Shown one piece after another: positions 13,166 through 28,172 of a stretch of DNA of 32,988 nt (position 1 is its first letter; each line of letters begins with the position of its first letter). The notes beneath the pieces are model-generated. The model saw only the letters and a list, made by a program, of their open reading frames with translations, was not told the origin of the DNA and did not search any database. The position numbers and the translations under genes were made by a program. The DNA is taken from contig CAMCCS010000009.1 of assembly GCA_945873295.1 (NCBI GenBank), forward strand, positions 1-32,988, read 5' to 3'. This stretch comes from an uncultured Clostridia bacterium (GTDB lineage: Bacteria > Bacillota > Clostridia > Oscillospirales > Oscillospiraceae).

Positions 13166-13621
13166 TTACAGGTTCCGTTCCAGGGTCACACCGCGAAGGT
13201 GAAAGCCCATCTTCCGGTAAAAAGCAAGGCCGTCTTCGTTTTCCACATAGGCACCCAGGCGCAGGCAGGTGCAGCCAAAGGCTTTGGCAAGGGCAGCAGC
13301 CTCCTGCATGATCTGCGTGCCGATGCCTTGGCTCCGGCAGTCCTCCCGGACACACAGCTCGTCCATCACAAACTCCCGATGAGCAACAAAGCCCGGAATG
13401 TCAAATGCTGCCACGTGGGCATTGATGTAGCCCACGATCTGTCCGTCCTGCCAGGCGCAGAAAAGCTCCTTTTTTTCAATGGCTTCCCGGAACCGTTCCT
13501 CGGGATACATTTGCTCCGCCATTCTGAAAAGGTCCGGCCGCCAGCCGATGTGAAGCCTGTGGACCTGCTCTGCCAGGGCATTGACCGTCTCCCGGTCCTC
13601 TGGCCTCGCAAGCTCCAGCAT
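13166..13621 (-). CDS. GNAT-family N-acetyltransferase
   Basis: 151 residues, the length of a single GNAT domain. The acetyl-CoA-binding motif A is CRSQGIGTQIM (residues ~99-109), preceded by the strand FVMDELCV and followed by ENEDGLAFYRKMGF, the usual motif B. The acceptor is not predictable. Its start ATG 13621 overlaps the tyrS stop by one base (TGATG), so it is translationally coupled to tyrS as the last gene of the T-box operon. A link to aminoacyl or peptide acetylation is possible but only inferred from position. Confidence 0.9.
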   Translation of the reverse strand: MLELARPEDRETVNALAEQVHRLHIGWRPDLFRMAEQMYPEERFREAIEKKELFCAWQDGQIVGYINAHVAAFDIPGFVAHREFVMDELCVREDCRSQGIGTQIMQEAAALAKAFGCTCLRLGAYVENEDGLAFYRKMGFHLRGVTLERNL

Positions 13622-14844
13622 CAGCCAAGCACCGCCTTGTGGAATACCTTCTTGCCCTTGCGCAGCTTAACACCGGCCTTCAGTTCTTCCTCGGTCACCT
13701 GTACCGTGGCGGCAGCGACTTTTTCATCGTTCAGGAACACGCCGCCCTGCTCCACCAGACGGCGGGCTTCCTTATTGGAGGAGGCCAGAGAGCAGGCAAC
13801 CATGAGATTCAGAATACCGATTTTACCGTCCGTGAGCTTATCCGCGGAAATTTCCGTTGTGGGCATATTGGCATCGTCTCCACCGCCGACAAACAGGGCT
13901 TTTGCGGCGGCCTGGGCCTTGGCTGCCTCTTCCTCGCCGTGGACCAGCTTGGTCAGCTCAAAGGCAAGAATCTCCTTTGCCTCGTTGATTTTGGCATCCT
14001 GCCAGGTATCCATTTCGTTGATCTGTTCCAGCGGCAGGAAGGTCAGCATCCGGATGCACTTCATAACATCGGCATCGGCTACATTACGCCAGTACTGGTA
14101 GAATTCAAAGGGACTGGTCTTATTGGGGTCCAGCCACACCGCGTTGCCGGCGGTCTTGCCCATCTTGTTGCCCTGGGAGTCCGTCAGCAGGGTGATGGTC
14201 ATGCAGTGGGCATCCTGACCCAGCTTCTTGCGGATCAGTTCCGTACCGCCCAGCATATTGCTCCACTGGTCGTTGCCGCCGAACTGCATGTTGCAGCCGT
14301 AGTGCTGGAACAGGTAGTAGAAGTCGTAGGACTGCATGATCATGTAGTTGAATTCCAGGAAAGAAAGGCCCTTTTCCATGCGCTGCTTGTAGCACTCCGC
14401 CCGGAGCATGTTGTTGACGGAGAAGCAGGCGCCTACCTCCCGCAGAAGCTCCACATAGTTGAGGTTCAGCAGCCAGTCGGCGTTGTTCACCATCTGGGCC
14501 TTGCCCGGCCCAAACTCAATGAAGCGCTCCATCTGACGCTTGAAGCACTCGGCATTGTGGTCAATGTCTTCCTTGGTCAGCATTTTGCGCATGTCGGTAC
14601 GGCCAGAGGGGTCGCCGATCATGGTGGTGCCGCCGCCAATCAGGGCAATGGGCTTGTTTCCAGCCATTTGCAGCCGCTTCATCAGGGTCAGCGCCATAAA
14701 GTGTCCGGCGGTCAGGCTGTCGGCAGTGCAGTCAAAGCCGATATAGAAGGTAGCCTTGCCGTTGTCGATCATCTCCCGGATTTCCGCCTCATTGGTAACC
14801 TGGGCAATGAGGCCCCGGGCAACCAGTTCATCATACAGTTTCAT
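13621..14844 (-). CDS. tyrS: Tyrosyl-tRNA synthetase
   Basis: 407 residues, the usual length for bacterial TyrRS. It charges tRNA-Tyr with tyrosine in the cytoplasm. The class I HIGH-type motif appears as TAGH (45-48) after YIGFDCTADSL. The tyrosine pocket and ATP region include GDPSGR (77-82). The KMSKS-type loop is KMGKT (227-231), with QFGGNDQWSN (187-196) before it. Residues ~341-407 form an S4 RNA-binding domain (RRLVEQGGVFLND). ATG 14844 follows the M28 peptidase stop by 15 nt with AAGGAA upstream. The operon leader carries a T-box whose features fit tRNA-Tyr. Confidence 0.97.
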   Translation of the reverse strand: MKLYDELVARGLIAQVTNEAEIREMIDNGKATFYIGFDCTADSLTAGHFMALTLMKRLQMAGNKPIALIGGGTTMIGDPSGRTDMRKMLTKEDIDHNAECFKRQMERFIEFGPGKAQMVNNADWLLNLNYVELLREVGACFSVNNMLRAECYKQRMEKGLSFLEFNYMIMQSYDFYYLFQHYGCNMQFGGNDQWSNMLGGTELIRKKLGQDAHCMTITLLTDSQGNKMGKTAGNAVWLDPNKTSPFEFYQYWRNVADADVMKCIRMLTFLPLEQINEMDTWQDAKINEAKEILAFELTKLVHGEEEAAKAQAAAKALFVGGGDDANMPTTEISADKLTDGKIGILNLMVACSLASSNKEARRLVEQGGVFLNDEKVAAATVQVTEEELKAGVKLRKGKKVFHKAVLG

Positions 14845-14859
14845 AAAGCATTTCCTTTC

Positions 14860-15792
14860 TTATTCCCCCTGGGACCGGCTGACCAGACTTGTCAGAGCGG
14901 CCCGCAGAATATTGACATTTGTTTGGTCCAATATGGTATCCCTCGCCGTATGGATACGGGAAAGATACAGCGCCAGCTTCCCTTTCCGCAGAGCGCAGAT
15001 GCCCACGCCGAGGGGAAAATTGCCCTGATCCGACGGGTAAACGGCAAAGCCCTTTTCCTTTAAGGATACCCGCTTCTCTCCGAAAAGGCCGCAGCAGGTG
15101 CGAAGCAGCGCCATCTTTTGCTTGTCCTTTTTCAGCTTCCCCGTGGGAAAGAATAAAATCTCATTTCCGTCACCTACACAGTCCAGATTCAGTACAATCT
15201 GTTTCTGAACCTGCGCCTTATGGGCCTTCCGGTAGGAAGCCGAGCCGATCACGCCCAGTTCCTCCAGGTCGAACAGGACAAAGCAAACCTTATCCCGCTG
15301 GTTTTTAGGCATCGTTCCGGCAATCTCCAGAAGCGTAACCACCCCGGAGGTATTGTCGTTGGCATTCCTGGGATTGGCAGGTCCGCACAGCAGCAGGGCG
15401 ATATTGACCCAAATAAGGATCAGGAAAACAAGCTGCCCGACAAAAAAGCTGTCCGTCAGCCAGCCCACGGCAATCCCCAGCAGGACAGCCGGAAGCAGAA
15501 TCACCGCTGTGACAACAAGCTGATACAATACAAAAAGGACAACATTACAGGGCGTAATGAGATTCGGGACCAGCATTCCCGCGCAGGTATCATAGTGGGC
15601 AGTGATCAGGAATTTTGCCTTTTCCGGGTCGCCGATCACAAGGTTCCGCGCGCCAAGGGAACCGGATTCTTCCCGGCATCCATAGCCGTTCCGGGAAAGC
15701 CAGTCTGACACTGCATTTCGAAACATTTGTTTCTGCTTTTTTGTTTTACGGACGGGAAACTGTTCCAAAACGTCCATAGGGTTTCCCAGCAT
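14860..15792 (-). CDS. Membrane-inserted M28-family zinc aminopeptidase
   Basis: 310 residues. All expected M28 metal and catalytic residues are visible: His66 and Asp68 (HYDTC), Asp146 (NDNTSG), Glu177-Glu178 (EELG), Asp204 and His281. Between HYD and NDN lie about 60 hydrophobic residues (~81-136) forming two or three membrane helices, so the catalytic domain is anchored by an insert and not by a terminal helix. M28 enzymes normally release N-terminal amino acids from peptides; which side of the membrane it works on is unclear. ATG 15792 is chosen because AAGGAG precedes it. A longer reading to 15870 would pass through the T-box terminator. It is the first gene after the T-box and lies 15 nt before tyrS. 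Confidence 0.85.
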   Translation of the reverse strand: MLGNPMDVLEQFPVRKTKKQKQMFRNAVSDWLSRNGYGCREESGSLGARNLVIGDPEKAKFLITAHYDTCAGMLVPNLITPCNVVLFVLYQLVVTAVILLPAVLLGIAVGWLTDSFFVGQLVFLILIWVNIALLLCGPANPRNANDNTSGVVTLLEIAGTMPKNQRDKVCFVLFDLEELGVIGSASYRKAHKAQVQKQIVLNLDCVGDGNEILFFPTGKLKKDKQKMALLRTCCGLFGEKRVSLKEKGFAVYPSDQGNFPLGVGICALRKGKLALYLSRIHTARDTILDQTNVNILRAALTSLVSRSQGE

Positions 15793-15817
15793 ACATTCTC
15801 TCCTTTCCGGGCAACAC

Positions 15818-16076
15818 AAAAAAGCCCCCTGTCCAAATCCGGACAGAGGGCGCAGAAAGCGCGGTACCACCTCATAATCGGCGCTTCCTCACGGACAGCG
15901 CCCTCACAGCGTCAGATAACGCCTACCGCTGTATCGGGCGAACCCGTCCTGCCCTACTGGATGTTCAGGCAAGCCACTCCGGGAGGTATTTGGGCGGTCT
16001 TTCCTGTTCCCTCGCACCAACCGGGAACTCTCTGGAGGAAAGGGGGCGCTTACTTCATCCCTTCACTGTGTTGACT
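15818..16076 (-). ncRNA. T-box leader, probably tyrosine-specific
   Basis: An untranslated leader of about 280 nt precedes the M28-tyrS operon. The T-box core TGGTACCGCG is at 15869-15860. The antiterminator pairs AAGCGC upstream with GCGCTT downstream of the core. The competing terminator pairs 15851-15841 with 15834-15824 (11 bp, one G-U) and ends in six T. Stem I shows the AGAGAG motif and apical GGTTGGTGCGAG. A TAC codon in AAATACC (15988-15986) is in the expected specifier position. The bulge TGGT would pair with an ACCA end, matching the A73 discriminator of tRNA-Tyr. Downstream tyrS supports a tyrosine readout. Uncharged tRNA-Tyr should switch the operon on. This fills the 360-nt gap before the M28 gene. 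Confidence 0.9.
15824..15851 (-). terminator. T-box-controlled terminator
   Basis: GCCCTCTGTCC pairs with GGACAGGGGGC, followed on the minus strand by six T (15823-15818). It overlaps the region used by the antiterminator upstream. Confidence 0.9.
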
Positions 16077-16836: not shown

Positions 16837-18513
16837 TTATCCATTTTCTTTCCGGTCCTCAGCCGGCGAAAGAAGCATTTCCTCCGCGCTTTTCAGGGTG
16901 GTTTCCGTAATATGGGTGCCGCCGATGATCCGGGCAAGCTCCCTCTTCCGGCCCTCCCGGTCCAGGGGGGTAACGCTGGTGTAGGTCCTGCCCCCCCGCT
17001 CCGCCTTGGAGATCAGCAGATGGGTATCCGCCAGCGCCGCCAGCTGGGGAAGATGGGTCACGCACAGCACCTGCTTGAACCGGGCCAGGGACTTGAGCTT
17101 TTCCGCCACCTTCTGAGCGGCACGCCCGGAAACGCCGGTATCCACCTCGTCAAAAATCAGGCAGCCGATTTTGTCCTTCTCCGCCAGAACATTCTTCATG
17201 GCAAGCATGATCCGGGCCAGCTCGCCGCCGGAAGCAACCTTACTCAAAGGCTTCAGCGCTTCACCGGCATTGGCGGACATGTAGAACGCCACAGCGTCCG
17301 CGCCGCTGGGCGTCAGCTCCAGCTCCCGGAACCGGCAGGAAAACTGCACCCTTGGCATATCCAGCTGGCTAAGCTCCGAAAGGATTCGCCGGGACATGGC
17401 TTCGGCGTTTTCCTGCCGGTTTTGGCGCAGGGTTTCCGCCTTTTCCCAGGCGGCAGCCTCCGCTTTTTCCAGCTTCTTTTTCAGTTTTTCCAGATGGTCG
17501 TCGGCAAATTCAATCTCATCCAGCTCTGCCCTGGCATGATCCAGATAGGCGAGTATGTCCTCGCAGGTGGCGCCGTACTTCCGGCGCAGCCGGTGCAGAA
17601 CATCGAGCCTTGACTCGATCCGCTCCAATTCGTCGGCGGAATAGCTCAGATTATCCCGGGCATCCCGGGCTTCCTCGGCAGCGTCCTCCACCTGGTATTT
17701 AAGGTCCGCCACCTTTTCATGGAGGGCGGCAAAGCTGTCACTGAACCGGCTGAGCCGGGCCAGGGCATACTCCGCCTGGGATAGCAGTCCCGCCGCGCCG
17801 TCGCTGTCGTCGTCCCCATAGAGGCACTGCACCGCCTCATCCATCCCCTGGGAAAGCTTTTCCGCGTTCTGCAGCAGCTTGCGCCGGTCCTCCAGCGCCG
17901 TATCCTCCCCGGCCTCGGGAGCCGCCTTTTCGATTTCGGCAATCTGGTATTTGAGGGTCTCCATCCGGCGGAGCTTCTCCCCCTCATCCATGGTCATCCG
18001 GTCGATCTGGCGGCGCAGGTCCGCAACGGTATCGTAGCTTTCCCGGTAGCTTTCCCGCAGGGCCTCATTTCCGGCAAAAGCGTCCAGAAAGGAAAGATGA
18101 TTTTCTTCATCAAAAAGCGCCGCGGAATCGTGCTGGCCGTGAATGTTGATTAACTGGATCCCCAGCTTATGCAGAATGGAAACCGTCACAAGGCATCCGT
18201 TGACCCGGCAGATATTCTTCCCGTCCAGAAAAATTTCCCGCTGGATCACCGTCTCCGGGTCATACGCCACCCCGTTTTCCGCAAACCAGGGAAGCTCCGG
18301 CACCTGGGTGAAAATGCCCCGGACAGATGCCTTCTGGGCGCCGGTCCTTATCATATCCCGGTAGGCCCGCTCTCCCACAATGGCGGATATTGCATCAATA
18401 ACGATGGATTTGCCCGCGCCGGTCTCGCCTGTGAGGACGTTGAACCCCCGGTCAAACGAAATATCCGCCTGCTCAATGACGGCAATGTTTTCAATGTGCA
18501 GCAGACTCAGCAC
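16837..18513 (-). CDS. recN: DNA repair ATPase RecN
   Basis: 558 residues, typical for RecN, an SMC-like protein that gathers broken DNA ends in double-strand break repair. Walker A GETGAGKS (29-36) is in the N-terminal half and the signature plus Walker B (LIFDEVDTGVSG, ~470) in the C-terminal half, with a long coiled coil between. The start is GTG 18513 behind AGGGGG with a 7-nt spacer. It follows argR by 17 nt. Its final codons carry the ATG of the ancestral downstream membrane gene, and its stop lies in the target duplication of the element at 16518, which left the RecN reading frame intact. Confidence 0.96.
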   Translation of the reverse strand: MLSLLHIENIAVIEQADISFDRGFNVLTGETGAGKSIVIDAISAIVGERAYRDMIRTGAQKASVRGIFTQVPELPWFAENGVAYDPETVIQREIFLDGKNICRVNGCLVTVSILHKLGIQLINIHGQHDSAALFDEENHLSFLDAFAGNEALRESYRESYDTVADLRRQIDRMTMDEGEKLRRMETLKYQIAEIEKAAPEAGEDTALEDRRKLLQNAEKLSQGMDEAVQCLYGDDDSDGAAGLLSQAEYALARLSRFSDSFAALHEKVADLKYQVEDAAEEARDARDNLSYSADELERIESRLDVLHRLRRKYGATCEDILAYLDHARAELDEIEFADDHLEKLKKKLEKAEAAAWEKAETLRQNRQENAEAMSRRILSELSQLDMPRVQFSCRFRELELTPSGADAVAFYMSANAGEALKPLSKVASGGELARIMLAMKNVLAEKDKIGCLIFDEVDTGVSGRAAQKVAEKLKSLARFKQVLCVTHLPQLAALADTHLLISKAERGGRTYTSVTPLDREGRKRELARIIGGTHITETTLKSAEEMLLSPAEDRKENG

Positions 18514-18530: not shown

Positions 18531-18983
18531 TCAGTTGATAAGCGCCTTGATCTCACCGCAGAAAATCGCGGCGGAATTGGAATCCCGCAGAATAGCCACT
18601 ACAGTGTCATCCCCTGCCAGGGTTCCCAGAATGTATTCCGCTTTCATAGCGTCCAGGGCAGAAGCAGCGGCATTGGCAAGGCCGGGCAGGGTGTGGATCA
18701 CCACAATATTCTGGGCATAGTCAAAGCTTGTGACACACTCCCGGAAGATGGCGTTGAGCCTGTCCGTAAAAGGATTGCCCAGTTCCTTTTCCGTGATGGA
18801 ATAGCGGTAGGTTCCGAAGTTCGTCATTTCTTTTACGATCTTCAGCTCCTTGATGTCCCGGGAGATGGTTGCCTGGGTACAGGAGAACCCCGCCTCCTGC
18901 AGCTCCTGCAGAAGCTGCTCCTGGGTCTCCACGTTGGAAGTGGAGATGATCTCCATGATCTTCGCCTGTCTTTTTGCTTTCAA
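18531..18983 (-). CDS. argR: Arginine repressor ArgR
   Basis: 150 residues. The N-terminal winged helix contains QATISRDIKEL (37-47). The C-terminal hexamerisation and arginine-binding domain contains GTLAGDDTV (~124-132). ArgR represses arginine synthesis genes or activates catabolic ones when arginine is bound. A TTG start at 18983 is chosen: GAGGGG lies 7 nt upstream and the N-terminus KAKRQAKIMEII aligns with family starts. It sits between nadK and recN, as is usual in Firmicutes where argR adjoins recN. A palindromic element separates it from nadK. No arginine genes occur in the window. Confidence 0.95.
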   Translation of the reverse strand: MKAKRQAKIMEIISTSNVETQEQLLQELQEAGFSCTQATISRDIKELKIVKEMTNFGTYRYSITEKELGNPFTDRLNAIFRECVTSFDYAQNIVVIHTLPGLANAAASALDAMKAEYILGTLAGDDTVVAILRDSNSAAIFCGEIKALIN

Positions 18984-19201: not shown

Positions 19202-20062
19202 TTATTTTTTGAACTTCGCGTTGACCACATCGTAAAAGCTGCGCTGCTTCAGCCGCACAAGCTTTGTTTCCAGCTTGGACCGGCGGACAGTCGTCACATC
19301 CCCCATGTTCAGGCGCAGGGCCTTTCCCCCGTCCACGGACAGATAGGCGTTGCGCCGGGCATTCCGGGCGAGCTCCACCGTCACTACCCGACGGTCGGAT
19401 GCCACAATGCACCGGGCCCCCATCTCGTGGGCACAAATCGGGGTGATGAGGATGTTTTCCGCCTCCGGCTCCACAATGGGACCGCCGGCGGAAAAGCTGT
19501 AGGCCGTGGAGCCGCTGGGTGTCGCCACAATCAGGCCGTCGCCGCCGCACTCCAGCGCCTGAACGCCGTCGCACTTTACCGTGAGATAAACAATCCGCGC
19601 CACAGCGCCCTTGGTAATCACCACATCGTTAAGAGAAATGTCATGGAAAATAATATCCCGGTCCCGCTGCACCGTCACATCCAGCATCCGGCGGCTCTCA
19701 ATGGTGAAGCTGTCCGTGCCCAGCAGCGCCAGCTTATCCAGCTCCGTGCTTTCCAGCTCCGCCATAAAGCCCATGGTGCCGATATTAACCCCCAGCAGCG
19801 GGATTCCCCGGCGGGTCGCGCTCTTTGCCATATGCAGTATGGTGCCGTCGCCGCCGAAGCAGACCACCAGGTCCGCCGTCTGCATCTCCCGGTCCAGACG
19901 GCTGAAATGCAGGTCCTTGGGAAGATCGTAGCTTCTGTCCACCTCAAAGGGCAGGCACAGCTTCACCTGCATACCCGCATCTTTCAGAATCTGAATAGCC
20001 TCCCGGGCAGTTCCAAAATTCTGATCCCGATACGGATTCGGGGTCACGATCACGTTTTTCAT
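19202..20062 (-). CDS. nadK: NAD kinase
   Basis: 286 residues. It phosphorylates NAD to NADP, supplying NADPH for biosynthesis including the DXP pathway started by the neighbouring dxs. The diagnostic GGDGT (70-74) follows VVCF. LLGVNIGTMGFMAE and ATPSGSTAYSFSAGG are the other conserved NAD kinase blocks. ATG 20062 overlaps the tlyA stop by four bases (ATGA), so translation is coupled. The stop is 3 nt from a palindromic element. Confidence 0.96.
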   Translation of the reverse strand: MKNVIVTPNPYRDQNFGTAREAIQILKDAGMQVKLCLPFEVDRSYDLPKDLHFSRLDREMQTADLVVCFGGDGTILHMAKSATRRGIPLLGVNIGTMGFMAELESTELDKLALLGTDSFTIESRRMLDVTVQRDRDIIFHDISLNDVVITKGAVARIVYLTVKCDGVQALECGGDGLIVATPSGSTAYSFSAGGPIVEPEAENILITPICAHEMGARCIVASDRRVVTVELARNARRNAYLSVDGGKALRLNMGDVTTVRRSKLETKLVRLKQRSFYDVVNAKFKK

Positions 20063-20874
20063 TCCTCGGCCCCCTTGTCCAGCGCCCTGTGGGCACCCTC
20101 CACAATTTCCTCCGGATCCGGGCGGAGGCTGTCTCCCTCACCCAGGGCCAGATGGGCCAGAAATTCAATATTGCCCTCCGGCCCCTTGACCGGGGACCAG
20201 GTCAGGCCCAGGACCCGGAAAGAAAGGCTGTCCGCCAGAGAAAGGAACCCTTCCAGCACTTCCCGGTGGGTGCTCTTTTCCCGGACAACACCTTTTTTGC
20301 CTACCTTTTCTTTCCCGGCTTCAAACTGGGGCTTGATCAGGCAGACCACCTGACCGGACTCTTTCAAAAGGGTCTTGATCACGGGCAGGACGATTTTCAG
20401 GGAAATGAAGCTCACGTCCACAACGGACAGGTCCAGCTTTTCTCCCAGCTGCTCCGATGTCACATAGCGGATATTGGTGCGCTCCATCACCACCACCCGG
20501 GGATCGGATCGGATCTTCCAGTCCAGCTGGCCGTAGCCCACATCGATGGCAAAGACCTTCCGCGCCCCCTGCTGCAAAAGGCAGTCGGTAAAACCGCCGG
20601 TGGAAGCGCCGGAATCGCTGCATACATAGTCCGTTGGCTGAATTCCAAAATCCCGCAGCGCCTTTTCCAGCTTCAATCCGCCCCGGCTCACATAGGGGCA
20701 GGCAGCCCCCCGGACCTCAATGGATACCGTTTCCGCAAAGGAGACACCGGGCTTGTCCGCTTTCTGACCGTCTACATATACAAGTCCGCTCATGATAATG
20801 CTCTGGGCCTTGGTCCGGCTGTCGGCGTAGCCCTGCTCCGTCAGCAGCACATCCAGTCTCTTCTTAACCTTCAC
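20059..20874 (-). CDS. tlyA: TlyA-family rRNA 2'-O-methyltransferase
   Basis: 271 residues from the GTG at 20874, which has GGAGGAGG upstream and overlaps the end of dxs by 11 nt. An upstream ATG at 20904 would add ten mostly basic residues without a ribosome site. Residues 1-60 form an S4 RNA-binding domain (KKRLDVLLTEQGYADSRTKA). The rest is an FtsJ-like SAM-dependent methyltransferase with the SAM loop DSGASTGGFTDCLLQ and IDVGYGQLDWK. TlyA methylates ribose 2'-OH groups of cytidines in 16S and 23S rRNA in some bacteria. Related proteins are sometimes called hemolysin A. The dxs-tlyA-nadK order is usual in Clostridia. Confidence 0.93.
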   Translation of the reverse strand: MKVKKRLDVLLTEQGYADSRTKAQSIIMSGLVYVDGQKADKPGVSFAETVSIEVRGAACPYVSRGGLKLEKALRDFGIQPTDYVCSDSGASTGGFTDCLLQQGARKVFAIDVGYGQLDWKIRSDPRVVVMERTNIRYVTSEQLGEKLDLSVVDVSFISLKIVLPVIKTLLKESGQVVCLIKPQFEAGKEKVGKKGVVREKSTHREVLEGFLSLADSLSFRVLGLTWSPVKGPEGNIEFLAHLALGEGDSLRPDPEEIVEGAHRALDKGAEE

Positions 20875-22744
20875 TTCGCAGCGCCTCCTCCGCGAACGCG
20901 GCAATGGCGCTGCTGTCCAAACCGCAGAAATGATACAGCTCCTTCATAGACCCGCCGGGGACATAATCCTTCCCCAGGTCCAGGCCCATTACCCGGCAGG
21001 TTTCATCCGCTTCCCGGAGCTGGGAAGCCAGGGCCTCCCGGATACCGGAACCGGCCGCCGTTTCCTCTGCCACAATGAGGGGTCGGCCCGGAGCCATTTC
21101 CCGGAGGATCTGCTCCACAGGAAATACGGAAAGAGTCAGAAGCCGCAGGACACAGGCGGAGATTCCGTTCTCTTCCAGAAGCTCCGCCGCTTCCAGAACG
21201 TTTTCCAGCATACTGCCGTAGGTCAGGAGTGTCACATCCGTTCCCTTTCGGTGGCAGCTGACGATGCCCCGGTTTTCCACCCCGGCAAAGCCCTGCCAAT
21301 CGGATTCCCGGCAGGACCCCTCCGTGCCCCGGGGATACCGGATGGCGACGGGTCCATTGTAGCTTTCCACCGCCCAGCACAGCATATCCCGCTGCTCGGC
21401 AAAGTTCACAGGCGCCAGAATCAGCATACCGGGGGCCATGCGCAGGAAGCCCACGTCAAACACACCATGATGGGTGGGGCCGTCGTCACCCACCAGTCCG
21501 GCACGGTCTATGGCAAGCACCACATGCAGGTGGAGCATACACACATCCTGAAAGATCTGGTCAAAGGAACGCTGGAGGAACGTGGAGTAAATGGCAGCCA
21601 CGGGTATCATCCCCTGCTTCGCAAGCCCCCCAGCCATGGAAACGGCATGCTCCTCCGCGATACCCACATCAAAATACCGTTTGGGATACCGGCGCATGAA
21701 GCCCAGCAGTCCGGTGCCGCCGGGCATGGCCGCCGTGATGGCGCAGACCCTGGGGTCCCGGGAGGCAAGCTCCAGCATGGTGTCCCCAAAGGAATCGGAA
21801 AAGGTCCGAACCTTAGGGCCCAGCTTTTTCCCCGTAACCGGGTCAAATTTGCCGATACCGTGGTATTTAGCCGGGTCCGCCTCCGCGAAAGGATAGCCGC
21901 AGCCCTTCTTGGTCACCACATGGACAAGCACCGGCTCTTTCATATCCCGGGCGGAGCGGAGCAGGCTGATAAGCCCGGGCAAATTATGCCCATCCACCGG
22001 CCCCAGGTAAGTCAGGCCCATATTTTCAAACATTGTCGCCGGAAGCAGGAACCGCTTCAGCCGGTTTTTCAGCTTGCTGCTGGCAACATAGATCCGCTCA
22101 CCCCAGGGAAGCTTCTTCATAACCTCCCGGTACCGGCGCTTGGCGTGAAGGTAATTTTCGCTGGAACGGATCCGGGACAGGTGCCGGGATAGGCCTCCTT
22201 CGCTTTTCCCGATGGACATTTCATTATCATTCAGGATAATAATCATGGGCTCATGGCTGACGGCAGCGTCATTGAGGCCCTCAAAAGCCATGCCGCCGGT
22301 GGCGGCGCCGTCACCCATCAGCGCAATCACATGGTAGTCCTCCCCCAGGAGCGTTCGGGCCCGGGCCATGCCCAGGGCAATGGATACGGAGCTGGACGCA
22401 TGACCGGCAATGAAAGCGTCCGAAGGGCTCTCCGAGGGTTTGGGAAAGCCGGACATACCACCAAACTGCCGCAGATGCGGAAAATCCGCCCGGCGGCCGG
22501 TCAGCAGCTTATGCACATAAGACTGATGACCAACGTCAAAAACCAGGCGGTCGACCATTGTATTAAAAACAGTCTCAATGGCAACGGTAAGTTCCACCGC
22601 GCCTAAATTTCCGGCAAGATGACCGCCGGTCTGACTGACGTTTGCAATAAGAAATTCCCGAATCTCCTGGCAAAGCTGAACCCGCTGCGCATCGTTCAGC
22701 CGTAGAAGATCCTCATGACCGTTTATTTTCTGTAGTATTTCCAC
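20864..22744 (-). CDS. dxs: 1-deoxy-D-xylulose-5-phosphate synthase
   Basis: 626 residues, normal length. It condenses pyruvate with glyceraldehyde-3-phosphate using thiamine diphosphate, the first step of the MEP isoprenoid route. Visible are GHQSY (72-76), GHAS (114-117), the thiamine-binding GDGAATGG (144-151) and the catalytic Glu in GIAEEHAV. The GTG start at 22744 has only a weak ribosome site and lies 15 nt after the OapA stop, so expression probably depends on coupling. With tlyA, nadK, argR and recN it forms the operon downstream of the OLE RNA. Confidence 0.97.
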   Translation of the reverse strand: MEILQKINGHEDLLRLNDAQRVQLCQEIREFLIANVSQTGGHLAGNLGAVELTVAIETVFNTMVDRLVFDVGHQSYVHKLLTGRRADFPHLRQFGGMSGFPKPSESPSDAFIAGHASSSVSIALGMARARTLLGEDYHVIALMGDGAATGGMAFEGLNDAAVSHEPMIIILNDNEMSIGKSEGGLSRHLSRIRSSENYLHAKRRYREVMKKLPWGERIYVASSKLKNRLKRFLLPATMFENMGLTYLGPVDGHNLPGLISLLRSARDMKEPVLVHVVTKKGCGYPFAEADPAKYHGIGKFDPVTGKKLGPKVRTFSDSFGDTMLELASRDPRVCAITAAMPGGTGLLGFMRRYPKRYFDVGIAEEHAVSMAGGLAKQGMIPVAAIYSTFLQRSFDQIFQDVCMLHLHVVLAIDRAGLVGDDGPTHHGVFDVGFLRMAPGMLILAPVNFAEQRDMLCWAVESYNGPVAIRYPRGTEGSCRESDWQGFAGVENRGIVSCHRKGTDVTLLTYGSMLENVLEAAELLEENGISACVLRLLTLSVFPVEQILREMAPGRPLIVAEETAAGSGIREALASQLREADETCRVMGLDLGKDYVPGGSMKELYHFCGLDSSAIAAFAEEALRSEG

Positions 22745-22759
22745 TGGTTACACGACCTA

Positions 22760-23350
22760 TCATGATTCTTTCTTTTTCCGAAACAGCGCGCGGAAGTGAT
22801 TCCAGGTATAAATCAGCTTTCCCACGCCGTGGACAATGGCGGTACAGGACCGAATGGCAAAGGTCTTGCCAATGGCTTTTCCCCCAACGGTCAGAGCCGC
22901 AACCAGCGCAGACATGACCAGGGACACCACCTGAGGCCAGGAAAAGGTAAAATGCGTCAGAATTTGGGACGCAATGGTGGCGGAGGCGGAGCCGGAAACG
23001 ACGCCGCAGATGTCGCCCACCACATCGTTGCAGATGGAGCTGACCCGCTCCGCGCTGCGAAGCAGGGAAATTGCCTCCCTGGCCCCGGGCACTTTTCGGG
23101 CCGCCATGGAGTGAAATGGTTTTTCATCGGCGGAGGTCACCGCCACGCCGATCACATCGAATACAATGCCCACCAGCACAATGGCCAGCAGGATCAGAAA
23201 CGCCACGGCAATGCTGCTGTTTTCCATGACCGCGTCAGAAAGCAGACTGATCGCACCGGAAACAAAAATAGTTGTTATAAAAATTGTAACGACCCATCGG
23301 GCGGTTTTATTGCGTTCCCGCTTGGATGTGCCGGAATCGGCCTTTGCCAC
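22760..23350 (-). CDS. oapA: OLE-associated membrane protein OapA
   Basis: 196 residues with three or four membrane helices (about 19-41, 46-72, 139-161, possibly 165-182), a basic N-terminus (KRERNK) and a basic C-terminus (RKKKES). The central loop DEKPFHSMAARKVPGAREA, then LLRSAERVSSICNDVVGDICG, recalls the DUF21/CorB-type region of CNNM magnesium transport proteins, without CBS domains. In organisms with OLE RNA, OapA is the membrane protein of this size encoded directly downstream of the RNA. It binds OLE and is tied to magnesium and stress phenotypes. The GTG start at 23350 follows AAAGGGG. Position between the structured RNA and dxs is the main argument. The alternative is a stand-alone CorB-like protein of unknown role. 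Confidence 0.82.
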   Translation of the reverse strand: MAKADSGTSKRERNKTARWVVTIFITTIFVSGAISLLSDAVMENSSIAVAFLILLAIVLVGIVFDVIGVAVTSADEKPFHSMAARKVPGAREAISLLRSAERVSSICNDVVGDICGVVSGSASATIASQILTHFTFSWPQVVSLVMSALVAALTVGGKAIGKTFAIRSCTAIVHGVGKLIYTWNHFRALFRKKKES

Positions 23351-23364
23351 TGCGATACCCCTTT

Positions 23365-23421
23365 AAAAAATCCCATGTCAGAACAGGCAAGGCGAAAACG
23401 GCAAGCCACTTCGGCATGGGA
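23365..23421 (-). terminator. Terminator-like hairpin between OLE RNA and oapA
   Basis: On the minus strand TCCCATG (23421-23415) pairs with CATGGGA (23377-23371), followed by six T (23370-23365), just before the oapA ribosome site. The loop is long (about 37 nt) with a smaller GGC/GCC stem. It could define the OLE 3' end and let only part of transcription pass into oapA and dxs. Confidence 0.6.
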
Positions 23422-23429
23422 ATCAAAAT

Positions 23430-24052
23430 GAAAATTGTATAAAACGGCGGCAGGCAGGATAAATCTTACGGCTTAGGTCGGGTTGGCTTTCCCCAAAGGA
23501 AACCTGCCGTTGCCGCGCAGGCCGTTTCCATTTCATTCCTGAGCCCGGAAGTTGCCAGTCCGGGTACCCGATTGCCACTTAGACCGTACTGCAATCCCCT
23601 GCCTGCCCAGCTACGACAGCCTAGGTGTTTTCCACGACAAAGCGCACTATGATCTTAGCCTCTTTTGCAAACATGGTTTCCAGGAGCGATAACGGCAGCT
23701 GCCATGGCCATGACCGCCGGCCGCCTGGTCCCCTTTTCCCGCATGTTCACTCAAGGCAGGCTACGCTGCACGCAGCAACGCGACTCTGCGCACTGCCTTG
23801 CAGGTTCATTTCCTGGCTCGTGCGCGGGCAGGCCCTTCCGGGTTCTCTCCGCCGTCGCACAATACCAGGTCTCCACGGAAACCGGGTCGTATGCCCCATG
23901 CCGTTGAGGCGCGCCCGGAATCCTTAACCCCCAGCATCCACCCTAAACTGGGCGTAAAAAGCAGACACCAGGGACTTCATCGCTGTGCCCTTCAAAGGAT
24001 TTTTAGGCCCTTCCTGGAAGATAGCCACTTTGACTAGGATACTGCACCGTTG
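23430..24052 (-). ncRNA. ole: OLE (ornate large extremophilic) RNA
   Basis: About 620 nt without a credible gene on either strand lie between a strong minus-strand promoter and oapA. Structure is dense. A 10-bp perfect long-range stem (23449-23458 with 23598-23607) encloses a 3' domain. A hairpin 23498-23529 pairs CCTGC/GCAGG and GGAAA/TTTCC. CCCGGA (23544-23549) pairs with TCCGGG (23559-23564). In the 5' half CCTGG and GTGCG (23812-23824) pair with CGCAC and CCAGG (23856-23869). OLE RNAs are about 600 nt, sit directly upstream of oapA, and neighbour dxs, argR and recN, all as here. RNase P RNA and tmRNA were considered, but their signatures (GAGGAAAGTCC, tag frame) are absent. Identification rests on size, structure and synteny, not on a covariance search. 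Confidence 0.82.
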
Positions 24053-24058
24053 CCGTAC

Positions 24059-24087
24059 ATGTTAACACATTTTGCGGAAATATACAA
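24059..24087 (-). promoter_or_regulatory. Promoter of the OLE RNA
   Basis: TTGTAT (24087-24082), a 17-bp spacer and TAACAT (24064-24059) with an extended -10 TG. Predicted start near 24052. Confidence 0.7.
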
Positions 24088-24193
24088 GTGTTTTTTCAAA
24101 AACTGTATATTTGCACAAACCTGTAGTGACGAATTGTATTTCTGAAACACAGCGTGCAGCCCCCTGTATCCCAGACAAATACACCCAATATAT

Positions 24194-24234
24194 GCTTAAC
24201 CGTTCCCAGCGGAAAACACCGGGAACGGTTAAGC
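24194..24234 (-). other. Perfect 14-bp stem without T-run after the Nudix gene
   Basis: GCTTAACCGTTCCC and its complement (24194-24207, 24221-24234) enclose a 13-nt loop 18 nt past the Nudix stop. No T-run follows on either strand, so it is either a 3'-stabilising stem, a factor-dependent stop or a protein site. The remaining bases up to the OLE promoter show nothing else. Confidence 0.55.
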
Positions 24235-24252
24235 GTACCCCATTCGAAAGGG

Positions 24253-24726
24253 TTATGGATTTTCTTCGAGAAACAGCTCCTCCACAATATCCGAGTGGGT
24301 CACGGGGATCCGCAGCTTCCGGACCTCTTCCGGCGTGAAGAAACGCAGTTCCTTGGATTCACGGCTCACCCGAAGCTCCGGCTCCTCCGGCAGATCCAGG
24401 GCATAGACCACAATGACCATCCGCCAGACACTGCCGTCCCGGTAGGCGGCAATCCGCCCCGGGTCACCGTAGACACGCAGCTTCCGGAAGCTTTCCGGGC
24501 GGACGCGAAGCCCCAGCTCCTCGTAAACCTCCCGGACAATGGCCTGCAGGCCGGTCTCCTGTTTTTTAACGCCGCCGCCCACCAGGCCCCACATATCGGA
24601 ATCCGTCCGCCGCTCCAGAAGCAGACGGCCCTTACAGGTAATAATGGCATTGGAGCCCAGCTTCGCCCGCTGGGTCGGCCTGGGCGCGTTTTTGGGATCT
24701 CCCCGGTAAAAGGTTACAATGGACAT
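24253..24726 (-). CDS. Nudix hydrolase
   Basis: 157 residues. The Nudix box is complete: Gly51, Glu57, then REVYEELGL (65-73), fitting GX5EX7REUXEEXGU. The preceding strands (NAIITCKGRLLLERR, MWGLVGG) are typical of ADP-ribose/NUDIX hydrolases acting on nucleoside-diphosphate derivatives; the substrate is not predictable. ATG 24726 is chosen because AGGAGG is 7 nt upstream. An in-frame ATG two codons earlier is too close to that site. It lies 11 nt after the deacetylase stop, so both are likely one transcript. Confidence 0.93.
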   Translation of the reverse strand: MSIVTFYRGDPKNAPRPTQRAKLGSNAIITCKGRLLLERRTDSDMWGLVGGGVKKQETGLQAIVREVYEELGLRVRPESFRKLRVYGDPGRIAAYRDGSVWRMVIVVYALDLPEEPELRVSRESKELRFFTPEEVRKLRIPVTHSDIVEELFLEENP

Positions 24727-24737
24727 ACCCATCCCTC

Positions 24738-26207
24738 CTAATTGTTGACGCTGTGGTGCGCAGTGGGGCTGTCGCTCTCAAGGGGCAGGAACTGATACCC
24801 CCGGTCCTGAGCCCAGAGGATAATATCCTCCACCGCGTCCACGCTGTAATCATGAATATCGTGCTGAAGCACAACGCTGACCCGGTGATTTTTAAGGCCC
24901 TCAATGACATTCTCCCGAACCTGCTTTGCCGTGCGGGCACTTCCCGCGTCGTCACTGTCCACGTTCCAGTCAAAGTATCGGAAGCCCGCGTCCTCCACCG
25001 CCCGGGTCAGGGTACTCATGATCCCCTTTGAGAACCGACGGCTGACCGTATTGGAGCTGCCCCCCGGGAACCGCATCAGCCAGGTCTCTACCCCGGTTTC
25101 CCGCCGGATAATATCCTGCATGGCATAAAGGTCCCGGAAATAGTCCTGGGGATCCGAATAGATCTTTTGATAGTCATGGCAGGTTGTATGAATGCCGATG
25201 CTGTGACCGTCGTCCACAATTTCCCGGAGAAGCTCCGGATTTTCATCCCCTACCACGAAAAATGTGGCTTTCACGCCGTACTTTTTCAGGACCCGGAGCA
25301 GGGCGTGGGTATAGGGCCCCGGGCCGTCGTCAAAGGTCAGGTAGATTACCTGTCCGTTGGGGGTCACCGTATCCTGCCGGGGAGCGCCGCGGACCGTAAA
25401 GTTCCGGGTCACAATGGATTCATTCCCCACGGCATCCCGGACTGTATAGGTCACGGGGTAGGTGCCCGGCGTCAGCCAGTCCACCACACCGGTCACCTCC
25501 ACCGCATCGGTCAGGTCCCCGTCCATATTGTCCTCGGCGGAGTAGCCGGGGTCATCAAAGCAGGAGCCCAGCAGGAAGCTGTAATCCGCTCCGCCATTTA
25601 AAGTGATCACCGGCGGGGTACGGTCCACAACGGGGATCTTCCGCTCCGCGTAGGCAGGGTTTCCCGAGGAATCCAGCACCGAGTAGGTCACCAGCCCCTC
25701 CGTTTCCACCCGGACGACCCGGTCCGTAATGTCCCCGTCAAAATTATCCGTCGCGGTATAGCCCGCTTCCTCATAAAGCTTTCCCGGCAGAAGATTCTCC
25801 GGATCGTCCGGTGTCAGGGTAATCACCGGGCACTGGGTATCCACCACCCGCACGAGTCTGCTGGCGCTGGCCCGGAGCGAACGCAGTTGGGCGGAATAGG
25901 TAACGGTATGCTTTCCCAGCCGGCCGTCTTCCACATCTGCCTCCACATGGATCGGGATCCGGGGGTCAAGGCCCTCCCTCCAGAATAAGCTTCCCCGAAG
26001 CACCGCCCCTGCGCCGGGGTCCGTATAAGTCTCTCCGTATTCCAGAATGACCTCGGACGGTCCCGCTGGAACCACGGTCAGGGAAAACTGGTTGACCCGG
26101 AACACAACCACCCACGCGGCAGCTGCCGCTGCCGCTAGCAATAAAAGCGCGATTACCCAGCGCCAGATACGGCGCTTCCGGATGGGCTGAAACAAATTCT
26201 CTTCCAT
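24738..26207 (-). CDS. Membrane-anchored polysaccharide deacetylase with Ig-like repeats
   Basis: 489 residues. A basic cytoplasmic tail and one membrane helix (16-36) precede three DUF5011/HYR-like beta-sandwich repeats (about 42-122, 123-195, 196-273; e.g. NFDGDITDRV, NMDGDLTDAV, TPPVITL). The C-terminal NodB domain (286-475) has TFDDG (291-295), the metal ligands His340 and His344, RFPGG (379-383), DWN (413-415) and LQHD with His449, so the active site is intact. Such enzymes remove N-acetyl groups from peptidoglycan or other surface glycans, often giving lysozyme resistance, which is notable given the secreted lysozyme at 3437. The promoter lies within the 249-nt gap to 26457, where only a weak TATAGT (26242-26237) is seen on this strand. 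Confidence 0.93.
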   Translation of the reverse strand: MEENLFQPIRKRRIWRWVIALLLLAAAAAAAWVVVFRVNQFSLTVVPAGPSEVILEYGETYTDPGAGAVLRGSLFWREGLDPRIPIHVEADVEDGRLGKHTVTYSAQLRSLRASASRLVRVVDTQCPVITLTPDDPENLLPGKLYEEAGYTATDNFDGDITDRVVRVETEGLVTYSVLDSSGNPAYAERKIPVVDRTPPVITLNGGADYSFLLGSCFDDPGYSAEDNMDGDLTDAVEVTGVVDWLTPGTYPVTYTVRDAVGNESIVTRNFTVRGAPRQDTVTPNGQVIYLTFDDGPGPYTHALLRVLKKYGVKATFFVVGDENPELLREIVDDGHSIGIHTTCHDYQKIYSDPQDYFRDLYAMQDIIRRETGVETWLMRFPGGSSNTVSRRFSKGIMSTLTRAVEDAGFRYFDWNVDSDDAGSARTAKQVRENVIEGLKNHRVSVVLQHDIHDYSVDAVEDIILWAQDRGYQFLPLESDSPTAHHSVNN

Positions 26208-26395: not shown

Positions 26396-26424
26396 TTGAC
26401 ATTATTCACATTTCATAGTATAAT
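26396..26424 (+). promoter_or_regulatory. Consensus promoter of the LRR protein gene
   Basis: TTGACA (26396-26401), a 17-bp spacer and TATAAT (26419-26424), an exact sigma-A consensus. The leader is about 26 nt. Confidence 0.9.
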
Positions 26425-26456
26425 TGACCGAGATTTTTCCGGAATGGAGACTGCTT

Positions 26457-28172
26457 ATGAAAAAGTTTTTCCGAATTCTGGTCCCCGTGCTGATGGGCGC
26501 GCTGATCATCGCCAGCATCGGGTGGTACCTGTTTGTTTATGACCGGGACTTTACCCGGGATATGCTCCTGGCGCAGGCACGCTATCAGGATCTGCACGGG
26601 AACGCCCGCCTGTCCGCCTGGTTCTACGACCTAGCTTACGAGCACTCCGGGCGGGACGAAAATGTTGCCGTTGAGCTTGCCAACCAGTACAAGTCCGACG
26701 GGAACTACACCAAGGCTGAGGTTACCCTCTCCAAGGCCCTCTACACAAATCCCACCACAGAGCTGTATATCGCCCTTTGCAAAACCTATGTGGAACAGGA
26801 CAAGCTTATGGACGCGGTGTCTCTGCTGGAAAGCATCCAGGATCCCGCTATCCGGGCATCCATTGAAACCCTCCGTCCCGCCGCCCCTACCGCGGACTTC
26901 GAGCCGGGATTTTACAGCAAGTATATCAGCGTATCCCTGATTTCCCAATCCGGTACGGTGTACTGCACCACTGACGGAGACTACCCCTCCGTTGCCGATG
27001 CCCCCTATTCAAAGCCTGTTTCTCTGCCTGCTGGAGAGACCGTGATTCAAGCCATCTGTGTGGATGACACCGGTCTTGTCAGTCACCTTACCGTTCTCGG
27101 GTATACCGTCGGCGGCGTAATCGAGCCCGCGGTTTTCAAAGATCCCGCCATTGAGGCCTCCGTCCGGGAGCTGCTGGATATTGGTGAGGGAAAAATTCTT
27201 TATACCGACGCCCTGTGGGGAATTACGGAATTCACCGTGCCCACCAATGCCGCCAGCCTGGATGACCTGGCGCTCATGCCCTATCTTGTAAGCCTGACCG
27301 CCGCGGATCTGCAGCTTGATAATCTGGACGGCCTTTCCTCCCTGGCAAAGCTGGAGAAGCTGGACCTTTCCGGCAGCCGCTTCCCGGCTAACTGCCTGGA
27401 AACCGCCGCAGGCCTCCCCGCGCTGGAGGAACTGAACCTGTCGGCCTGCTCCTTAAGCACCATCTCCGGTCTGGAAGCCGCCGGCAATCTGCGCATTCTG
27501 AATATCAGCAACAACTCGGTCCGGAATCTGGAGCCCCTGTCCAGCCTCGTCTTCCTGACGGAGCTTTCCATGGATCACAACGCTCTGACTTCCCTGGATG
27601 CCATCTCCGCTCTGACGGCTCTTGAAACGCTGGATGTTTCCTACAATTCCCTGACCTCTCTGCAGGCCATCGGCGGCTGCGCCAAGCTCAGAACTCTGAA
27701 CGCCGCCGGAAACCGGATCTCCAACCTGTCCGGTGTTTCCCAGCTCGGCATGCTGAGCAGCCTGGCTCTGGACTACAACGTGCTGACAGACATTACCCTG
27801 CTGGGCTCCTGCACCGGTCTGACGGAGCTACGCATTTCCAACAACACCATTTCCGATCTGTCCGCTCTTGACGGTCTGACTGCCCTGGAGATCTTTGATT
27901 TCTCCTACAACCAGGTGGAATCCCTTCCTGACTGGCCCTCCAGTGCCAAGCTGCGGATTATTAACGGTGCCCACAACGTTCTTACCAGTATTGACGTTCT
28001 TGGCGGCATGGCGGATCTGACCTATGTCAGCATGGACTATAACGCCCTTACCAGCGTGGACGCTCTTGAAAACTGCGCCAACCTGGTTCAGGTAAATGTC
28101 TACGGCAATGAGATCGACGATGTTTCCGCCCTGACCGCCCACAATATCATCGTCAACTACGACCCAACCTAA
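26457..28172 (+). CDS. Membrane-anchored TPR-like/leucine-rich-repeat surface protein
   Basis: 571 residues from ATG 26457, which follows GGAG by 7 nt. A longer frame from 26424 would begin inside the -10 box. Residues 7-27 are a membrane helix with a KKFFR start. Residues ~35-130 are helical and TPR-like (DGNYTKAEVTLSKALYTNP). Residues ~165-218 resemble the chitobiase/hexosaminidase C-terminal-like module (YCTTDGDYPS, GETVIQAICVDDTG). A cap (ASVRELL, LYTDALWGITEF) then leads into about 14 internalin-type leucine-rich repeats of 20-23 residues (~265-565), with Asn ladders such as LDVSYNSLTSLQAI. It is likely an extracellular binding protein; the ligand is unknown. The methyltransferase gene follows after 15 nt. 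Confidence 0.88.
   Translation: MKKFFRILVPVLMGALIIASIGWYLFVYDRDFTRDMLLAQARYQDLHGNARLSAWFYDLAYEHSGRDENVAVELANQYKSDGNYTKAEVTLSKALYTNPTTELYIALCKTYVEQDKLMDAVSLLESIQDPAIRASIETLRPAAPTADFEPGFYSKYISVSLISQSGTVYCTTDGDYPSVADAPYSKPVSLPAGETVIQAICVDDTGLVSHLTVLGYTVGGVIEPAVFKDPAIEASVRELLDIGEGKILYTDALWGITEFTVPTNAASLDDLALMPYLVSLTAADLQLDNLDGLSSLAKLEKLDLSGSRFPANCLETAAGLPALEELNLSACSLSTISGLEAAGNLRILNISNNSVRNLEPLSSLVFLTELSMDHNALTSLDAISALTALETLDVSYNSLTSLQAIGGCAKLRTLNAAGNRISNLSGVSQLGMLSSLALDYNVLTDITLLGSCTGLTELRISNNTISDLSALDGLTALEIFDFSYNQVESLPDWPSSAKLRIINGAHNVLTSIDVLGGMADLTYVSMDYNALTSVDALENCANLVQVNVYGNEIDDVSALTAHNIIVNYDPT

Follow-up and report, generated by a model that had tools for sequence, protein, structure and literature searches.

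A full-length OLE RNA gene beside oapA in a gut Clostridia genome, and the largely complementary distribution of OLE-OapA and MpfA among its close relatives

OLE RNAs are among the largest known bacterial noncoding RNAs, and their biochemical function has been unsettled for nearly twenty years. A published survey counts 2,822 Bacillota genomes that carry them and describes variants from uncultured gut clades (PMC11332333). A GGCC in loop L9.3 is the kissing loop of the OLE dimer in cryo-electron microscopy (PMC12286853), and conserved G-C pairs of P6 are needed by bS21 (PMC12054373). In Halalkalibacterium halodurans the RNA is also bound by ArgR (PMC10898510). The DxxxD motif is described as distinctive of the membrane partner OapA, and both an anticorrelation between OLE and the Mg2+ exporter MpfA across Bacillota and the idea that OapA and MpfA are equivalent have been published (PMC11332333). 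Here we describe an OLE locus in a 32,988-nucleotide (nt) stretch of an uncultured Clostridia bacterium of the Oscillospiraceae (assembly GCA_945873295.1, contig CAMCCS010000009.1; hereafter the window). The locus encodes the entire OLE RNA, followed by OapA, downstream of a predicted conserved promoter and ahead of dxs-tlyA-nadK-argR-recN. Taken as a whole it is likely to be best explained as producing a full OLE RNA that forms a metal-balancing particle with its membrane partner.

On the minus strand of the window, from 24400 down to 22500, a promoter-like site is followed by about 640 nt of non-coding DNA, then a hairpin with a U run, a gene for a 196-residue membrane protein, and dxs. Within the approximately 640 nt every minus-strand reading frame is shorter than 60 residues. 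A first-pass annotation, made from the letters alone, had proposed that some 620 nt of densely structured non-coding DNA at this place are OLE RNA and had suggested a search with the Rfam covariance model. That search identifies ole at 23428..24066 (minus strand; RF01071, 437.9 bits, E 1.5e-125), far above the gathering score of 50, and the copy spans all 616 model positions (1-616/616). Size and density of structure alone are compatible with another large structured RNA filling the gap, such as RNase P RNA, tmRNA or an unnamed class. Against this stands the end-to-end OLE match, and no Rfam family other than OLE was matched on either strand of 22500-24400 under laxer filters with E up to 1. 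The first-pass annotation had named the absence of both a covariance hit and co-varying stems, or a better match to another structured RNA such as RNase P RNA, as grounds for abandoning its proposal; the stems covary, as described below, and only OLE matches. Another RNA is counted as already refuted and its probability is negligible, and the identity of the locus as OLE is near certain.

The host groups with gut Faecousia, a genus name inferred from the records named Candidatus Faecousia and Faecousia sp. within the genus group. The OLE alignment comprises the window copy and 58 copies from relatives, 29 from a draw of family genomes (including the same-genus genome G049) and 29 from a genus search; these are the best-scoring copies with stored loci among 41 and 101 matches, and 58 of the 59 rows are distinct. 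The structure examined has 156 pairs and was obtained by fitting the Rfam structure to the window copy. Pairing is possible in 88.5% of cells, and sliding the partners by 1-3 columns reduces this to 38.6-46.8%; some excess over the slid controls is expected from a structure taken from Rfam and placed by the window copy, and the excess seen is judged to be larger. Both sides change in 96 of the 156 pairs among the 58 distinct copies, and in 500 shuffles the observed values were never attained. Individual helices differ in how well they fit, with pairing in 68.1% of the cells of helix 10 and 74.6% of those of helix 18. The GGCC palindrome of loop L9.3 (23706..23709, minus strand) occupies the aligned columns in 58 of 59 copies, and in the remaining copy it is offset by one. 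Columns 182-184 of helix 3, which is equated with P6 by position and not by the numbering of PMC12054373, form G-C pairs with columns 213-215 in 58/58 copies. Assignment to OLE variant 1 or 2 was rejected: in our reading of the model alignment the P7-P9 region is complete and its loops carry insertions, not losses.

The membrane protein gene following ole, oapA (OLE-associated protein A), lies at 22760..23350 on the minus strand and has an open frame of 196 residues. Its DxxxD motif (D109 and D113; 23012..23026, minus strand) is invariant in the alignment columns of 35/35 OapA proteins; a regular expression recovered 34/35, probably owing to slice limits. The predicted structure, compared by VIA with the 351 chains ranked highest by Foldseek, has a CNNM-like transmembrane fold without CBS or CorC domains, and a weak CNNM profile match agrees with this fold. 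The first-pass annotation had named this protein as OapA, which the motif and predicted fold bear out, and had proposed a search against OapA profiles. The profile part yielded nothing: no Pfam or NCBIfam family scored above its cut-off, and no OapA profile was among the hits. A CNNM search of the host genome at E 0.1 returned no match besides OapA. OapA looks to be related to the transmembrane domain of the Mg2+ exporters CNNM/CorB/MpfA, in stand-alone form. In the family draw it is found in the same 41/150 genomes as OLE. An additional match in G064 (E 4.1e-4, 27% identity, inside a 1,073-residue frame) was not counted as OapA. In two OLE-bearing members of the family the OapA match has TGA codons in frame (two in G036:C10:7536-8075 and one in G082:C41:16588-17106).

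The soluble partners were sought in the host genome, an assembly of 237 contigs that is 85.5% complete. A homologue of OapB, which the first-pass annotation had advised looking for elsewhere in the genome, is present at L007:10425-10727 and matches the solved OapB structure 7k9b over residues 7-88 (E 2.7e-7). By eye, its gene follows map in a ribosomal-protein cluster. An OapC/YbxF homologue at L008:2714-3013 (E 3.8e-16 to 3v7e; E 5e-16 to the YbxF structure 4lck) lies, also by eye, ahead of rpsL-rpsG-fusA. No bS21 match was found in the 85.5%-complete assembly. Because most family genomes have bS21 (135/150, and 94 of the 96 of high quality), this absence likely reflects incompleteness, and its interpretation as a trait of the lineage was rejected.

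The first-pass annotation had also placed a promoter before the RNA. A predicted -35 box TTGTAT (24082..24087) and a predicted -10 box TAACAT (24059..24064) are present on the minus strand with a 17-nt spacer, and the region aligns in 31 Faecousia copies. The first 15 or so positions of the Rfam model overlap the -10 box, so the transcript is predicted to start near 24052. The -35 box sits in a conserved region, CTTGTATATTTC (24077..24088, minus strand; genus consensus CTTGTATATTCA). This region, CTTG(T/A/C)ATATTCA with some variation, aligns together with an extended -10 in the 31 copies. It is near-palindromic (TGTATATTCA/TGAATATACA), and, like the extended -10, is recognisable in several other genera too. 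The window and 80 ole loci were scanned for the promoter pattern (837,568 bases). All 52 matches to the combined pattern sit 30-70 nt before OLE, as do all 29 exact matches to CTTGTATATTCA; the OLE 5' motif occurs in 68 loci, leaving 16 without the strict promoter pattern. CTTGNATATTY has a single match, the ole promoter, in 456,426 bases of the host genome, about a fifth of the total. In the sequence scanned the -35 region is thus confined to ole, together with a like form at three empty ole sites described below. The ole promoter is probably dedicated, because a general promoter consensus should have turned up elsewhere, and the -35 region looks like the site of a dedicated regulator or sigma factor.

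An inverted repeat, AATATACA-N17-TGTATATT (24079..24111, minus strand), surrounds the -35 box and is a possible operator; its upstream half is present in only part of the relatives. An ArgR operator is tempting here, given the argR gene of the cluster and the binding of OLE by ArgR in H. halodurans. The ARG-box pattern is TGAATNNNNATTCA. It has no match in the 456,426 host bases, the ole promoter included, among which no arginine-synthesis gene was found to calibrate the search.

Taken together, these features bear on whether ole and oapA could be silent relics in a host that uses another Mg2+ exporter. Related species without the pair, the fragmented and 85.5%-complete host assembly, and the TGA codons in the OapA matches of G036 and G082 would suit such decay. 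Set against them are a copy that spans 616 model positions with covarying helices, a promoter region that aligns with those of relatives, an open OapA frame with invariant motifs, and the finding of no further CNNM match in the host genome at E 0.1. A decaying copy is very improbable.

OLE is common among the close relatives of the host. It is found in 101 of 136 genus genomes (34 of the 40 of high quality) and in 41 of the 150 genomes drawn from the family. The first-pass annotation had overrated the rarity of the copy; OLE is usual in this genus, and the count published for Bacillota (PMC11332333) points the same way. At least 13 of the 101 genus matches are cut by a contig end (six start within the first 14 contig bases and seven are flagged; G261 is ambiguous), and five of the cuts lie near model position 52-54. 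Seven partial matches were considered as true short forms of OLE and rejected, since 7/7 run into a contig end. Metagenome assemblies may be prone to break at OLE, and drafts that seem to lack it should be read with care.

The ole-oapA pair and MpfA, an Mg2+ exporter, show largely complementary distributions within this one genus. CNNM matches stronger than 1e-20 occur in 9/41 OLE-bearing vs 99/109 OLE-lacking family genomes; seven more OLE-bearing genomes match CNNM only at 5e-7 to 9e-6, which is taken to be OapA itself. In the genus the CNNM/MpfA counts are 13/101 OLE-bearing vs 20/35 OLE-lacking genomes. Among high-quality genus genomes MpfA is present in 6/34 with OLE vs 6/6 without, and 40/40 have at least one of the two systems. 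Fisher tests that ignore relatedness give p values of 5e-16 (family), 7e-7 (genus) and 2.4e-4 (high-quality genus). All six MpfA proteins tested (OLE-lacking G135, G151, G153, G175 and G208; OLE-bearing G049) have CNNM, CBS and CorC_HlyC domains. They fall into two groups, G135, G151 and G208 vs G175, G153 and G049, that are approximately 27-30% identical to each other. G232, probably an isolate, carries both OLE and MpfA. A strict rule of one system or the other is contradicted by 15 OLE-lacking genus genomes, none of high quality, and 10 OLE-lacking family genomes that have neither.

The pattern could also reflect shared ancestry or assembly loss of OLE, with no functional replacement. The contig-end cuts noted above mean that drafts may miss OLE, and the Dxs tree includes few OLE-lacking lineages. 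This tree (86 rows, quick method, midpoint root) is made up in its OLE-bearing part mostly of rows fetched for having OapA. The OLE-lacking Faecousia nevertheless lie in separate places, scattered among OLE-bearing rows: G203 within a 36-row set (support 95), G151/G135 and G175 within a 16-row set (support 96), and G153 outside the rest. Over the tree as a whole, with its outgroup genera, five or more changes of the OLE label are required by starred branches. OLE is repeatedly absent on this tree, which gives no rates. The involvement of two MpfA subtypes and the presence of MpfA in all six high-quality OLE-lacking genus genomes also argue against ancestry or assembly loss, as does the Nudix-dxs junction found without ole-oapA in three OLE-lacking genomes. 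We consider ancestry or assembly loss an unlikely account of the complementarity, with some weight left to it.

The dxs region was inspected in OLE-lacking G203, G151, G135, G175 and G153, with G208 and G254 left out. In G203, G151 and G135 dxs comes directly after the Nudix gene, approximately 220-250 nt away; ole-oapA is absent between them, and no OLE remnant is detected at these three sites at E 0.01. An ole-type promoter is left at each, CTTGTATATTCA...TATGATATCAT in G203 and CTTGTATATACG...TGTGATAATAT in G151 and G135. The series of three genomes represents two lineages, G151 and G135 counting as one, and G203 has 8% contamination. Deletion of ole-oapA is the simplest reading of the empty sites, and loss is favoured over gain because the promoter remains. 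Gain of OLE is disfavoured for these three sites and less clearly so for G153 and G175, in which dxs has no nearby Nudix gene and different reading frames lie upstream. Literature searches and a term search of PMC11332333, supplements not covered, returned no within-genus empty ole sites.

By analogy with H. halodurans, the OLE RNA most likely folds and dimerises through the GGCC kissing loop, and most likely binds to membrane-embedded OapA alongside OapB, OapC and probably bS21. The resulting particle would respond to stress by tuning divalent-metal balance and the processes tied to it. The regulatory role that the CBS and CorC domains have in MpfA may fall here to the RNA and its soluble partners. 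An RNA-regulated OapA that is the counterpart of MpfA would explain why MpfA is found in high-quality relatives without ole-oapA. We regard the equivalence of OapA and MpfA as evenly balanced between true and false. A different division of labour would have OapA do the work, as an ion transporter, and OLE serve only as a scaffold for assembly or as a regulator, with no catalytic role. The predicted CNNM-like fold with its weak CNNM profile match fits this division, as does the frequency with which genomes lacking the pair carry MpfA, a protein that has no RNA. However, ole and oapA occur in the same 41/150 genomes, so that these data cannot tell the roles apart, and the conservation of OLE seems to exceed what a scaffold would need. 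This division of roles is a serious possibility, somewhat short of an even chance.

Combining the empty sites with the metal-balancing particle leads to a wider scenario, which we rate at somewhat less than an even chance. The ole-oapA pair would have been deleted more than once from the same place in one gut genus, leaving its promoter to drive dxs, with MpfA of at least two subtypes taking over. OLE and OapA would then be an RNA-controlled version of the MpfA Mg2+ exporter, and the ole promoter element a regulated switch for the whole dxs-argR-recN cluster. A genus that includes species with OLE only, with OLE and MpfA, and with MpfA only (three with an empty site) is a natural experiment on the role of OLE. 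Unlike comparisons across the phylum, near relatives provide matched pairs for genetics and comparative physiology. What is added here is a within-genus replacement series, by which the existing OapA/MpfA equivalence hypothesis, put forward in PMC11332333, becomes testable in near relatives.

The terminator-like hairpin that the first-pass annotation had placed between ole and oapA is present with its U run (23365..23421, minus strand; hairpin at approximately 23421-23371; -21.3 kcal/mol, z -2.76), and it was equalled in stability by 2/200 shuffles. Across the 31 Faecousia copies the median length of the ole-oapA spacer is 17 nt; four spacers are longer than 70 nt, among them those of the window (77 nt) and its sister (75 nt). 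The hairpin is a local feature, because most Faecousia spacers leave no room for it, and by eye it is common only to the window and this closest sister. Co-transcription of ole and oapA is probable in most species; in this species part of the transcripts may stop before oapA. The other long Faecousia spacers are those of L140 (94 nt) and L151 (181 nt), the latter with strong hairpins that by eye resemble a small inverted-repeat insertion. In G029 ole and oapA are approximately 2.5 kb apart, separated by a 786-residue frame (L189:1094-3454) that by eye encodes a solute-binding lipoprotein.

The genes downstream of oapA are in the order given by the first-pass annotation, with which Pfam agrees, and all are on the minus strand. 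They are dxs (20864..22744; DXP_synthase_N, E 1.9e-107), tlyA (20059..20904 as reading-frame limits, the true start probably lying inside; S4 and FtsJ methyltransferase), nadK (19202..20062), argR (18531..18983; Arg_repressor and Arg_repressor_C) and recN (16837..18513; SMC_N of RecF/RecN/SMC, named from its place and length). As also stated there, neither ispA nor xse is directly upstream of ole. A NUDIX gene identified by Pfam (24253..24732, minus strand) and a polysaccharide deacetylase are found instead. The order Nudix-ole-oapA-dxs is kept in the window and in 7/8 of the OLE-bearing Faecousia relatives examined; in the eighth the contig stops short. The deacetylase (24738-26207) has Ig-like domains and is divergent from a gene for a leucine-rich-repeat protein with a chitobiase C-terminal-like domain (26424-28172, plus strand). 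A T-box leader (15843-16075, minus strand; 106.8 bits) precedes an M28-family peptidase frame (14860-15870), followed by what is by eye tyrS (13621-14844).

The locus is a known system correctly identified, and the copy is a normal member of the OLE class. It resembles the full-length type of RF01071 in model length, secondary structure, the L9.3 GGCC, the downstream oapA, the dxs-tlyA-nadK-argR-recN neighbours and the encoded OapB and OapC homologues. It differs in its gut host, in having no ispA or xse directly upstream, and in the terminator-like hairpin before oapA. OLE variants 1 and 2, described in PMC11332333 as common in the TANB77 and RF39 gut clades, likewise belong to gut bacteria. 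In that description, however, P7-P9 are shortened or P7 and P8 are missing and the hosts largely lack OapB and OapC, whereas here that region reads as complete and both proteins are encoded. The OapA of the window is like that of H. halodurans as presented in PMC11332333 in its adjacent ole, small membrane protein form, DxxxD and CNNM-like fold, a likeness of features and not a letter-by-letter comparison. Compared with the CNNM Mg2+ exporters MpfA/CorB/CorC, it has no CBS or CorC_HlyC domain, and it carries the DxxxD motif that CNNM domains are described as lacking in PMC11332333.
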